Assembly: GCF_001037495.1 (NCBI RefSeq)
Contig: NZ_KQ089822.1
Location: forward strand, 62,001-126,000
Source: Citrobacter sp. MGH106
GTDB lineage: Bacteria; Pseudomonadota; Gammaproteobacteria; Enterobacterales; Enterobacteriaceae
DNA length: 64,000 nt
Reading direction: 5' to 3'
Of the stretch, positions 51,308 through 57,759 are shown piece after piece; positions within the stretch are counted from its first letter, which is position 1; the number at the start of each line of letters is the position of its first letter. The position numbers were made by a program, and so were the translations under genes. The notes below the pieces were generated by a model. The model saw only the letters and a list, made by a program, of their open reading frames with translations. It searched no databases and was not told the origin of the DNA.

Positions 51308-51388
51308 ATGAAAATTGCAGATCAATTTCATGATGAGTTATGTAGACTGGCCGCCATTAATTTTGAGGCACACGTACTACATGGCTGA
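51308..51388 (+). CDS. yrbN: Small protein YrbN
   Basis: A 26-residue ORF beginning [14 protein letters not shown] and ending FEAHVLHG, matching the E. coli small protein YrbN as I recall it. Its stop overlaps the deaD start by eight bases (ATGGCTGA), so its translation probably feeds deaD initiation. Function is unknown. It has a weak ribosome-binding site. Confidence 0.85.
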
Positions 51389-53312
51389 ATTCGAAACCAC
51401 TTTTGCAGATCTGGGCCTGAAGGCTCCTATCCTTGAAGCCCTTACCGATCTGGGTTACGAAAAACCATCTCCAATCCAGGCAGAGTGCATTCCGCATCTG
51501 CTGGGCGGTCGCGATGTTCTGGGTATGGCCCAGACCGGTAGCGGCAAAACTGCAGCGTTCTCTTTACCGCTGCTCAACAATCTTGATCCTGAGCTGAAGG
51601 CACCTCAGATTCTGGTGCTGGCACCGACCCGCGAACTGGCGGTTCAGGTTGCAGAAGCCATGACGGATTTCTCTAAACATATGCGCGGCGTGAATGTGGT
51701 TGCCCTGTACGGCGGCCAGCGTTATGACGTGCAATTACGTGCCCTGCGCCAGGGCCCGCAGATCGTTGTCGGTACGCCGGGACGTCTGCTGGATCACCTG
51801 AAGCGCGGTACTCTGGATCTCTCCAAACTGAGCGGTCTGGTGCTGGACGAAGCTGATGAAATGCTGCGTATGGGCTTCATCGAAGACGTTGAAACGATTA
51901 TGGCGCAGATCCCGGAAGGTCATCAGACCGCTCTGTTCTCTGCAACTATGCCGGAAGCGATTCGTCGTATTACCCGCCGCTTTATGAAAGAGCCGCAGGA
52001 AGTTCGTATTCAGTCCAGCGTAACCACGCGTCCTGACATCAGCCAGAGCTACTGGACTGTGTGGGGCATGCGTAAAAATGAAGCTCTGGTACGTTTCCTG
52101 GAAGCAGAAGACTTTGATGCGGCGATTATCTTCGTACGTACCAAAAATGCGACCCTGGAAGTCGCTGAAGCACTGGAGCGTAGCGGTTATAGCAGCGCTG
52201 CACTGAATGGCGACATGAACCAGTCTCTGCGTGAGCAGACTCTGGAGCGTCTGAAAGATGGCCGTCTGGATATTCTGATTGCGACCGACGTTGCTGCTCG
52301 TGGCCTGGACGTTGAGCGTATCAGCCTGGTTGTTAACTACGACATCCCGATGGACTCTGAGTCTTACGTTCACCGTATTGGTCGTACTGGTCGTGCGGGT
52401 CGTGCGGGTCGTGCGCTGCTGTTCGTTGAGAACCGCGAGCGTCGTCTGCTGCGTAACATCGAACGCACCATGAAGCTGACCATTCCGGAAGTAGAACTGC
52501 CGAACGCAGACCTGCTGGGCAAACGCCGTCTGGAAAAATTCGCCGCGAAAGTACAGCAACAGCTGGAAAGCAGCGATCTGGATCAGTACCGTGCTCTGCT
52601 GGCAAAAATGCAGCCGGAAGAAGAACTGGATATCGAAACTCTGGCCGCAGCACTGCTGAAAATGGCTCAGGGCGAACGTCCGCTGATCCTGCCGCCAGAT
52701 GCTCCGATGCGTCCGAAACGCGAATTCCGCGACCGCGATGATCGTGGTCCGCGTGACCGCAACGATCGTGGCCCGCGTGGCGACCGTCCAGAACGTGGTG
52801 GTGAAGATCGTCCACGTCGTGAACGTCGTGACGTTGGTGATATGCAGCTGTACCGCATTGAAGTGGGCCGTGACGACGGTGTTGAAGTTCGTCATATCGT
52901 TGGCGCGATTGCTAACGAAGGCGATATCAGCAGCCGTTACATTGGTAACATCAAGCTGTTTGCTTCCCACTCCACCATCGAACTGCCGAAAGGCATGCCG
53001 GGCGACGTGCTGCAGCACTTTACCCGTACCCGTATCCTGAACAAACCGATGAACATGCAACTGGTTGGCGATGCAGTACCGCACACCGGTGGTGAGCGTC
53101 GTGGCGGTGGTCGCTTCAGCGGCGAACGTCGTGAAGGCGGTCGTGGTGAAGGTCGTAGTTTCAGCGGTGAGCGTCGTGAAGGCGGCCGTGGCGATGGTCG
53201 TCGTTTCAGCGGTGAGCGTCGTGAAGGTAACCGTGGTCCGCGCCGCGATGATTCTTCTGCGCCGCGCCGTGATGACTCTGCTGGCCGTCGTCGTTTCGGT
53301 GGTGACGCATAA
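51381..53312 (+). CDS. deaD: Cold-shock DEAD-box RNA helicase DeaD (CsdA)
   Basis: A 643-residue ATP-dependent RNA helicase for 50S assembly and mRNA decay in the cold. Motifs in order are Q motif ([11 protein letters not shown]), AQTGSGKT (50-57), PTRELA, LDEADEM, SAT and [10 protein letters not shown]. An RNA-binding domain and an RGG-rich tail follow. The tail has tandem [11 protein letters not shown] units (53117-53230) and is longer than in E. coli (629). ATG 51381 (MAEFETTF) is taken as start. Confidence 0.97.
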
Positions 53313-54790: not shown

Positions 54791-55798
54791 CTACCCAACC
54801 AACTCTTCTTTCACCTGCATCGCTAAATCAAACGAATGTAAACGTGCCTGGTGGTCGAAAATCTGCCCATTGACCATAATTTCATCCGCTTGTGTTTCAC
54901 GCAGAATCGACTCCAGTCCATGACGTATTTTCACTTTATCTCCCACCAGCGACATACTCAGTGCCTGCTGAACGCCATACTGCTCAGAAGCGGACCACAG
55001 CTGATGCATATTTTCTACCGGAGGTGGTAACTGTCCGGTTTCACCCCGACGCAATTTTACGAATGCCTGCTGCATCGAGGTAAAGAGAAATTCGGCATCA
55101 CGATTGCTGTCAGCGGCAATGATATTGATGCACACCATGGCATACGGTGTTGCCAGCCGTGCTGAAGGTTTGAACTGAGTGCGATACAGATGCAATGCCT
55201 GGTGCAGCATATCTGGTGCGAAGTGTGAGGCGAAGGCAAACGGCAAACCAAGCTGTGCTGCCAGTTGTGCGCTGTACAGGCTGGATCCCAGTAACCAGAC
55301 CGGAATTTGCTCACCATAGCCGGGAACCGGGCGTACTTGTGGATTAGGATCGCATGCGTCAAACCAGTCCACCAGTTCCGCCACATCGCGCGGGAAGTTA
55401 TCGATATCACCGCTCATATGACGGCGCAGTGCGCGCATGGTGGGTTGATCGCTGCCTGGCGCACGTCCAAGGCCCAGGTCGATACGGCCAGGATACAGCG
55501 TATTCAGCGTCCCGAACTGCTCAGCGATCACCAACGGTGAATGGTTAGGTAGCATGACCCCACCGGACCCCAGACGCAGGGTGGTGGTATTGGCTGCCAG
55601 ATAACCTATCAGTACAGAGGTTGCTGCACTGGCGATACCGGTCATATTGTGATGTTCAGCCAGCCAGTAGCGATGGTAGCCGCGCTTTTCAGCCAGTTGA
55701 GCGAGATCCAGAGAGTGCGTAAAAGCCTCTTTTGCACTGGAACCTTCGGGGATCGGTGCCAGATCCAGCACCGAGAACGGAATAATTTTGTCAGTCAT
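54791..55798 (-). CDS. yhbW: Luciferase-like monooxygenase YhbW
   Basis: A 335-residue flavin-dependent, bacterial-luciferase-fold protein with the start [21 protein letters not shown] and the FMN-binding [14 protein letters not shown]. The substrate is unknown. It lies downstream of ubiUV on the same strand after a 78-base gap. That gap is almost filled by a long inverted repeat ending four bases before its ATG. Confidence 0.93.
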
Positions 55799-55802
55799 AA
55801 CG

Positions 55803-55872
55803 GCTCACTTTGTTACCGGTTAATCTTTTAATACTGCATTAAAATTTGATTACCGTTGTTAACAAAGTGAGC
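55803..55872 (-). promoter_or_regulatory. 70-base nested inverted repeat over the yhbW ribosome-binding region
   Basis: GCTCACTTTGTTA (55803-55815) pairs perfectly with TAACAAAGTGAGC (55860-55872). Inside, GGTTAATC/GATTACC pair with one bulge, and TTTTAAT/ATTAAAA form the inner stem with a five-base loop, about 27 pairs in all. In the ubiV-yhbW message the 3' arm holds the AAGTGAG ribosome-binding sequence of yhbW. On the forward strand a T-run follows. Confidence 0.85.
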
Positions 55873-55876
55873 TTTT

Positions 55877-56755
55877 TTACGCCTGAAGCTCCAGACCTGC
55901 CAGACGTTTCCAGTAGCCGTTACAGTCGCTGTGGGCAGTAAGTGGTAATGGGGCACAGCCATTCTCATTGGCACGGAAGGCATCAAGCATCGCGAATGTC
56001 TCGGTTCCTAATGGGGACAGACGGACGATATCAACCAGGCCCTGCATGGACGTCAGTTCATTACCGAGGTTGTAGACATAACCGCTCATGGTCTGAATCC
56101 CATTCAGGACAAAGACCTGCTGGTTCTCTTGCGACAGGACATCGCGGCCATTTGGATATTTGATGCAGCAGGTTTCGCATTCGTCTTTTGGTCGGTCCTC
56201 AGAGCGTGCGGTAAAGCAGCGGGCAGAGTACGCTAAAGGTAGATGCCCGTAGCTCAGAACTTCGACTTCAAACTGGTTGCGAATACCCAAGTCATCACAC
56301 TGGTTGAGCAGATTCACCAGCCAGTCGCGGGATAGTTCTACTGGCATACACCAGCGCACCATGCCTTGTTTAAGCAACAGACGAAGGGTCACGGCGTTGT
56401 AGCAGTTGAGCGCATGCCCGGCGACAAATGGCAGTTTACGTTCGGCGCACATGTTCACAACGCCCAGATCGCTGGCTTCCAGTAGGAAGTCGCCATTTTC
56501 TACATAGCGCTTCAGCTCACCCAGCTCCGATGATGCCTGAACCAGCGCCAGCGTGGACAGCACCACCTGTTTCCCGCTACTGGCGAGTGATTTTGCCATA
56601 TCAATCCAGTCACCCGTTTTGGTGGCGCGGCGTTTGCTACACACAGCTTCCCCAAGATAGATAACGTCGGCATTACTGGTAGCGGCCTGCTGATAAAAAT
56701 CTTCCAGCGTTTCTTTCGACCAGTAGTAGAGCACTGGTCCTAAGGAATATTTCAT
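55877..56755 (-). CDS. ubiV: O2-independent ubiquinone hydroxylation protein UbiV
   Basis: A 292-residue U32-family protein that works with UbiU and UbiT in anaerobic ubiquinone synthesis and carries a 4Fe-4S cluster. Candidate ligands are Cys39-region (GEAVCSKRR) and the cluster SARCFTARSEDRPKDECETCCIKYP. ATG 56755 (MKYSLGPVL) was chosen over a start six codons upstream. It lies eight bases after ubiU. Confidence 0.95.
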   Translation of the reverse strand: MKYSLGPVLYYWSKETLEDFYQQAATSNADVIYLGEAVCSKRRATKTGDWIDMAKSLASSGKQVVLSTLALVQASSELGELKRYVENGDFLLEASDLGVVNMCAERKLPFVAGHALNCYNAVTLRLLLKQGMVRWCMPVELSRDWLVNLLNQCDDLGIRNQFEVEVLSYGHLPLAYSARCFTARSEDRPKDECETCCIKYPNGRDVLSQENQQVFVLNGIQTMSGYVYNLGNELTSMQGLVDIVRLSPLGTETFAMLDAFRANENGCAPLPLTAHSDCNGYWKRLAGLELQA

Positions 56756-56763
56756 TGCTTTTC

Positions 56764-57759
56764 TCACTGCCATTTACGGTGATACGCACCAAGCGTAGTC
56801 TGCGTGCCTTCGGACATTGAACCGAGTGTTTCCATCCAGGCGCTTTGCGGAACAAAGTTCTGCGGATCGGCTTTGCAACGGTCAATCGCCTGGCGCCACA
56901 CTTTCGCCACCTGGCTGACGTAAGCCGGGCTACGCTGACGTCCCTCAATTTTCACCGAGGCGATGTTGGCTGCCATCAGATCGGGTAGCAGTTCTAACGT
57001 ATTAAGGCTGGTCGGCTCCTCCAGCGCATGATAACGCTCACCGTCCACAAGATAGCGTCCCTTACAAAGCGTTGGATAACCTGCGTTTTCACCGTCCTGA
57101 TAGCGGTCAATCAGCACTTCATTCAGGCGAGATTCAAGGCCTGCTGGGGTTTGCTGCCAGCGAACAAATCGGGCAGGGGAGCACGCACCAACGGTGTTGG
57201 GGGATTCACCCGTCAGATAAGACGAAAGATAGCAGCGACCTTCCGCCATAATGCACAGACTGCCAAAGGCAAACACTTCTAAAGGAACTGGTGTTACGCG
57301 AGCGAGCTGTTTTACCTGATGGATTGATAGCACACGTGGTAGAACAACGCGTGCGACGTCAAAGTTGCGATGGTAGAAATTAATCGCTTCCTCGTTGGTT
57401 GCGGATGCCTGAACGGAGACATGGCGCTCAATATGCGGGTAGCGCTCTGCGGCATACTCAAGCATAGCGAGATCGGCGAGGATCAGCGCATCAGCACCCA
57501 GTTGCGCCGCCATATCAACGGCTCGTTGCCAACGTGCGTAACCATCCGGGTGCGCAAAGGTGTTAATTGCGATGTGCAGCTTACGGCGGTGTTGATGGAC
57601 AAAATTCACCGCTTCCTGCAATTTTTTCTCGGTAAAATTAAGGCCGGCGAAATGACGGGCGTTGGTGTCATCTTTCAGCCCGATGTATACAGCATCAGCG
57701 CCGTTCTCGATGGCCGCCTTAAGCGCCGGGAGATTTCCGGCAGGGCAGAGCAGCTCCAT
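56764..57759 (-). CDS. ubiU: O2-independent ubiquinone hydroxylation protein UbiU
   Basis: A 331-residue peptidase-U32-family protein that forms an Fe-S heterodimer with UbiV. The start MELLCPAGNLPALKAAIENGADAVYIG and the cysteine set in EGRCYLSSYLTGESPNTVGACSPARF are typical, with further Cys at TLCKGRYL. It is divergent from ubiT; in E. coli this promoter region responds to FNR. Confidence 0.96.
   Translation of the reverse strand: MELLCPAGNLPALKAAIENGADAVYIGLKDDTNARHFAGLNFTEKKLQEAVNFVHQHRRKLHIAINTFAHPDGYARWQRAVDMAAQLGADALILADLAMLEYAAERYPHIERHVSVQASATNEEAINFYHRNFDVARVVLPRVLSIHQVKQLARVTPVPLEVFAFGSLCIMAEGRCYLSSYLTGESPNTVGACSPARFVRWQQTPAGLESRLNEVLIDRYQDGENAGYPTLCKGRYLVDGERYHALEEPTSLNTLELLPDLMAANIASVKIEGRQRSPAYVSQVAKVWRQAIDRCKADPQNFVPQSAWMETLGSMSEGTQTTLGAYHRKWQ

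Follow-up and report, generated by a model that had tools for sequence, protein, structure and literature searches.

We favor, at slightly better than even confidence, the view that the inverted repeat between ubiV and yhbW in Citrobacter sp. MGH106 is a read-through insulator of the phage T4 gene e type, in which a putative activator site doubles as an anti-Shine-Dalgarno (anti-SD) arm. Transcripts running on from the Fnr-activated ubiUV genes would carry both arms of the repeat, and on such read-through RNA the 5′ arm would pair with the AAGTGAG ribosome-binding region, so that yhbW would not be translated. The promoter of yhbW itself would have its -10 element in the loop, and its own mRNA would begin after the 5′ arm, leaving the ribosome-binding site (RBS) exposed. 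In the DNA itself, this arm would serve as an upstream promoter element, probably a RamA/MarA/SoxS/Rob site. We infer the yhbW start site, the occurrence of read-through, its silencing by the hairpin and the role of the 5′ arm as an activator site from the sequence together with published work, as we do the mechanism as a whole. The interpretation offered in a preliminary description of this DNA probably needs to be turned round, with the 5′ arm placed outside the message of yhbW itself and acting on read-through RNA.

Both genes lie on the reverse strand of the window, the whole 64,000-nt stretch of DNA that was analyzed, and both are annotated in accordance with an ortholog in Escherichia coli: ubiV (55877..56773), the second gene of the upstream ubiUV unit, and yhbW (54791..55798), which encodes a luciferase-like flavin monooxygenase. 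They are separated by 78 nt. Within this gap, the 5′ arm GCTCACTTTGTTA (55872-55860) pairs with the 3′ arm TAACAAAGTGAGC (55815-55803) to form a perfect 13-bp outer stem on the reverse strand, the 5′ arm starting 4 nt past the ubiV stop and the 3′ arm ending 4 nt before the yhbW ATG (55798). The sequence of the 5′ arm complements the yhbW RBS region, and its position suggests an upstream promoter element; extended to 55858 on the same strand, the arm forms a 15-nt conserved block, GCTCACTTTGTTAAC. The SD-like sequence GTGAG (55808-55804) lies inside the 3′ arm, 5 nt upstream of the ATG. The gap RNA folds at -33.6 kcal/mol, compared with -14.9 ± 2.7 for shuffled sequences (z -6.9), and none of 200 shuffles was as stable. 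Dinucleotide shuffling of the same 111 nt, repeated 2000 times, gave a single perfect inverted repeat of 12 bp and none of 13 bp or more. The outer stem, its position four bases beyond the ubiV stop and the SD-like sequence in its 3′ arm are as first described. The description had also included middle and inner stems of 7 bp; the inner one is present in the window, the middle one pairs with a bulge, and both are weakly kept among relatives. The outer stem is the feature that matters.

Some general explanations of such a hairpin were rejected. An intrinsic terminator of ubiUV does not fit, as no U-run follows the stem in the sense direction. A T-run at 55873-55878 of the window (TTTTTTA, forward strand) follows the stem in a manner that is terminator-like for antisense RNA only; this forward-strand run is seen in some relatives only and is absent at that place in the aligned E. 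coli sequences. A dispersed repeat of the REP, ERIC or MITE kind was likewise rejected because the repeat is single copy in its genome: it is complete at one place only, where it also matches its own mirror image, and the other hits are of at most 23 nt with E >1. Elsewhere in the window, a 449-aa open frame (51735-53084) runs antisense to a DEAD-box helicase gene (51315-53312) and is probably a by-product of codon use.

YhbW was found in 141 of 246 family genomes, and the region upstream of yhbW was examined in 117 genomes, genus set included. The 5′ arm pattern is present in 83 of the 117, and both arms occur in all 17 genomes of the genus set. Absence in the remaining 34 was judged by one pattern within 260 nt; most of these are distant, with 47-76% identity over the compared yhbW fragment. 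Two are close by this fragment, G043 (L077, 91%) and G101 (L101, 82%), the former a broken case with one stop each in ubiV and yhbW and a changed 5′ arm. As AAGTGAG stands just before the yhbW start in 9 of the 34 arm-less genomes, the 3′ arm would appear to be older than the 5′ arm. A 98-nt query containing the repeat matches 5374 of 5426 E. coli genomes, 5368 of them over at least 80% of the query; the letters themselves were inspected in nine E. coli loci, and the whole hairpin is present in E. coli K-12 (fold z -4.0). Named carriers include Salmonella enterica arizonae, Enterobacter asburiae, Cedecea neteri, Kosakonia arachidis and a Buttiauxella. The arms were tabulated in 85 rows under 39 genus labels, leaving aside L077 (no match to the 5′ arm pattern), L095 (an indel) and the named loci L177-L194. 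Across these rows, both arms are kept at an arm-to-arm span of 67 to 186 nt, which varies because many genera carry extra sequence between the loop motif and the 3′ arm. REP- or ERIC-like inserts between the ubiV stop and the 5′ arm, with the hairpin undisturbed, occur in L262, L010, L024, L027, L028, L040 and L054; in other genomes the extra DNA at this place is of another kind. In L141, L142 and L145 (G033, G178 and G042), the 5′ arm is 764 to 772 nt away from ubiV and stays with yhbW.

Counting G-U as paired, the outer stem forms 12 of 12 pairs in 36 of the 37 distinct sequences with a span of 69 or 70 nt, and the inner stem forms all 7 pairs in only 7 of these 37. Over positions 1-12 of the 37 distinct arm pairs, 93.7% of the 444 cells are paired, compared with 36.5-50.8% when the arms are slid by 1-3 columns. 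The cells departing from the commonest pair comprise 34 G-U, four double changes and 28 unpaired, the last mostly at arm positions 7 and 9-11; the base composition of the arms accounts for part of the G-U excess. In shuffles of these 37 pairs, the covariation score was reached by 4 of 500 and the paired-cell share by 1 of 500, although kinship among sequences can by itself outdo such shuffles. Base pairs changed on both sides were not above the shuffles (2 vs 1.4, reached by 202 of 500), nor were further pair types (198 of 500). Individual co-changes were seen at position 5, where A-U becomes G-C in two genera (L055; L098 and L144), and at position 7, where U-A becomes A-U in L145; in L095, CCCTGT pairs with ACAGGG around a bulge when read by eye. 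Exceptions are g75, g106 and g109, three genera with A-A at position 7, and L069, with A-C at position 5. The 5′ bases 13-15 (AAC) are constant in most rows and their partners vary. The few arm co-changes favor pairing in RNA, as judged from aligned sequences. Conservation of the pairing in close relatives, on which the preliminary description had made its proposal depend, is what was found, with a few compensatory changes in the outer stem.

The distance from the 5′ arm to a -10-like motif, GCANTAY, is 35 in 76 of the 85 rows and 34 in 8, the motif not being found in one. As this distance is fixed while the arm-to-arm span varies, the 5′ arm behaves as a promoter element. In the window, the motif corresponds to the conserved, extended -10-like element TGCAGTATT (55838-55830, reverse strand) within the loop, and is probably the -10 element of a predicted yhbW promoter, from which the mRNA of yhbW itself would start at 55821..55826, downstream of the 5′ arm. 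A strict sigma-70 promoter scan of the window returned no promoter and did not report TGCAGTATT, and AATACT-like or GCANTAYT sequences occur within 260 nt in 23 of 45 upstream regions without the 5′ arm, a raw count with no chance control. Relative to the proposed promoter and its predicted start, the 5′ arm would fall at about -49 to -35. Class II marboxes sit at about -49 to -35. The marbox consensus AYnGCACnnWnnRYYAAAY has 14 specified positions (PMC3709825), and a weak marbox-like site overlapping the 5′ arm (55857..55875, reverse strand) departs from it at 4 of the 14 in the window and at 2-4 across the 85 rows. No better marbox lies within 275 nt in 66 of the 85 rows, and a better site is found elsewhere in the other 19. 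By the base frequencies of the window, chance alone would supply about two sites this good (4 mismatches or fewer) over as many positions, which makes the marbox label only a lead.

Published work on yhbW is consistent with such a promoter. Purified RamA is reported to bind a Klebsiella yhbW promoter fragment and to activate yhbW 6.9-fold in vitro, the mobility-shift templates lying 150-250 bp upstream of the start (PMC4310594), and deletion of ramA is reported to lower Salmonella yhbW 3-fold (PMC3139621). A count of the rob regulon includes yhbW (PMC7653855), as does the reported SoxRS regulon (PMC6561319). Our literature search found no paper listing marboxes. The preliminary description had allowed for a promoter inside the loop that leaves the 5′ arm out of the message; this is probably the actual arrangement, given the motif spacing in 84 of 85 rows and the action of RamA on Klebsiella yhbW. 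In E. coli TUM1226 (L263, 1516-1542), a natural deletion has removed the loop with its -10-like motif and left the arms back to back, which makes this strain a natural test of the promoter idea.

SD accessibility was predicted in folding models for 56 of the 85 rows, one for each distinct combination of genus, arms and span, with own-promoter RNA computable in 53. The mean was 0.03 in read-through RNA; scrambling the 5′ arm raised it to 0.33, and own-promoter RNA gave 0.35. The corresponding values for the window were 0.00, 0.39 and 0.34. In read-through RNA, the SD fell below 0.2 in 52 of 56 sequences and was less well buried in L091, L098, L145 and L146 (0.20-0.44). Own-promoter RNA is moderately open by this measure, exceeding 0.5 in only 7 of 53 sequences, and is also closed in L090, L138, L097 and L143 (0.02-0.03); scrambling the 5′ arm alters little in L097, L143, L091 and L146. 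The RNA from the inferred start in the window is short before the ATG and has no unusual structure (z 0.55). The masking of the yhbW RBS, as originally proposed, is supported by the fold and by predicted accessibility, and probably applies only to messages entering from ubiUV.

Between the -10-like motif and the RBS, many genera carry an extra conserved segment, in most of them of the form CAGC ... GAAGACCTTCAATCTGATGA ... GCTG, at about 1406-1496 in L182 and also in L071, L063, L070, L073, L087, L096 and others. The sequence ACCTTYAATMTGA is shared by 23 distinct long leaders, nearly all with the CAGC...GCTG flanks when read by eye, and long and short leader forms coexist in at least three genera (g2, g41, g142). 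When one long leader was searched against 16 genomes, 15 matched, each at yhbW, with one more weak hit elsewhere in G157 (E 0.06). Of 246 family genomes, 28 gave a hit to the 19-nt core GAAGACCTTCAATCTGATG: in 20 the hit has no more than one mismatch and, by its coordinates, lies directly upstream of yhbW, and in 8 it has two mismatches and never lies at yhbW. The segment has no Rfam match, and RNAalifold applied to the long-form alignment returned only a 4-bp helix with no covariation support; further hairpins are visible by eye, without statistical support. A small ORF in the long leader was rejected because, read by eye, several genera show interrupted frames in nearly identical nucleotide sequence.

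The preliminary description had suggested that yhbW translation is coupled to ubiV, with a ribosome ending ubiV opening the hairpin so that yhbW is translated from a ubiUV-yhbW message. At 4-8 nt from a stop codon, a terminating ribosome could overlap or partly open the 5′ arm, and in 60 of 82 genomes the arm does start at this distance from the ubiV stop (in one, at 14 nt). These 82 are all but one of the 83 arm-bearing genomes, the other being G003, in which the ubiV part and the arm/yhbW part are about 7.4 kb apart. However, the distance is 24 to 772 nt in 21 of the 82, so coupling is not the general function, and 20 of these 21 wide-gap genomes are in the pairing table, where they keep 9-12 of the 12 pairs, the remaining one being L095. 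Two named E. coli strains likewise have 132 nt between the stop and the arm. One of them, H69 (L262), has an insert just outside the arm, and among the matches listed, 15 of 60 E. coli rows share its break point, aligning only from a position a little short of the 5′ arm. Coupling may occur where the ubiV stop is close to the 5′ arm, and as an account of the repeat it seems to us rather improbable. It is also unlikely, to a slightly lesser degree, that the repeat has no RNA role at all, the 5′ arm being only an activator site (marbox), the 3′ arm only an RBS, and their complementarity a historical accident between two constrained elements. The fixed spacing from the 5′ arm to the -10-like motif, the AAGTGAG retained in 9 of 34 arm-less genomes, the constant AAC bases with varying partners and the modest covariation would all suit this explanation. 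Against it, a 13-bp match is not expected by chance (0 of 2000 shuffles), the arms change together in L055, L098/L144, L145 and L095, and the pairing survives very different spans.

Two other proposals of the preliminary description appear very improbable. A dyad DNA operator, at which one regulator would bind both arms and loop the DNA or block RNA polymerase, would explain the same 13 bp occurring in opposite orientations, but is disfavored by an arm-to-arm span of 67 to 186 nt with no fixed phase and by the inner end of the 5′ arm, GTTAAC, which is not consistently mirrored on the 3′ arm. An RNA switch, in which the yhbW leader senses a ligand or stress, is scarcely more credible: vanillin is reported to raise YhbW protein about 77-fold and its mRNA about 13-fold, a rise also seen when soxS is deficient (PMC6561319), and some genera have the extra conserved leader segment, but no Rfam family reached threshold in the window or in 8 related loci with long or third-form leaders, and the RNA from the inferred start in the window is short before the ATG and unstructured. 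The Rfam matches that were returned fell far below threshold and were to miRNA families and one snoRNA family rather than to a riboswitch or leader family. Part of the vanillin-induced rise in YhbW may be translational.

The read-through insulator reading has a plausible purpose, as ubiUV is reported to be an Fnr-activated operon (PMC10470549) and YhbW to be homologous to oxygen-using monooxygenases (PMC6561319). More tentatively, and as a possibility rather than an expectation, the observations may be joined into a single scheme: on DNA, one conserved sequence would be where the activator of a stress promoter binds, and on read-through RNA it would be an anti-SD arm, only messages from the stress promoter would be translatable, the oxygen-using enzyme would stay off in anaerobic ubiUV messages, and the extra conserved RNA segment of several genera may add control. 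If this is true, a stress gene is insulated from its upstream operon without a terminator by an activator site doubling as an RNA silencer, and the level of read-through mRNA would be a poor guide to YhbW protein. We found no description of the ubiV-yhbW hairpin in the yhbW literature, subscription papers being mostly outside the search. As the hairpin is present in E. coli K-12, the insulator idea is testable at once.

A comparison with known systems shows likenesses and disparities. IS10 and IS50 are shielded from outside transcription by a hairpin that forms in incoming read-through RNA and conceals the RBS of a gene with a promoter of its own; the yhbW hairpin differs in being single copy in its genome and not part of a mobile element. 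The literature searched on read-through silencing of transposases offered no usable precedent. Like promoters of the mar/sox/rob/ram regulons, yhbW is reported to be a direct RamA target in Klebsiella (PMC4310594) and has been placed in the rob and SoxRS regulons, and its 5′ arm weakly resembles a marbox (4 of 14 mismatches in the window); unlike those promoters as described in the cited papers, the yhbW box would double as an anti-SD arm. In phage T4, the leaders of gene e (lysozyme), soc, 49 and I-TevI are reported to hold the RBS or start codon in an RNA helix; for gene e, long upstream transcripts are silenced, and late promoters just upstream of the RBS give mRNA from which the 5′ part of the helix is missing (PMC3014915). 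Unlike gene e, yhbW is a bacterial chromosomal gene whose 5′ arm also stands at the position of an activator site, and its silencing is a prediction. Like gene e, yhbW is predicted to have its RBS in a stable helix within a long transcript (accessibility below 0.2 in 52 of 56 sequences). The yhbW loop holds a conserved -10-like motif, a candidate promoter element that the strict scan did not report. According to the folding models, yhbW messages arriving from upstream would stay silent, as in gene e, and those begun at the inner promoter would be more accessible.
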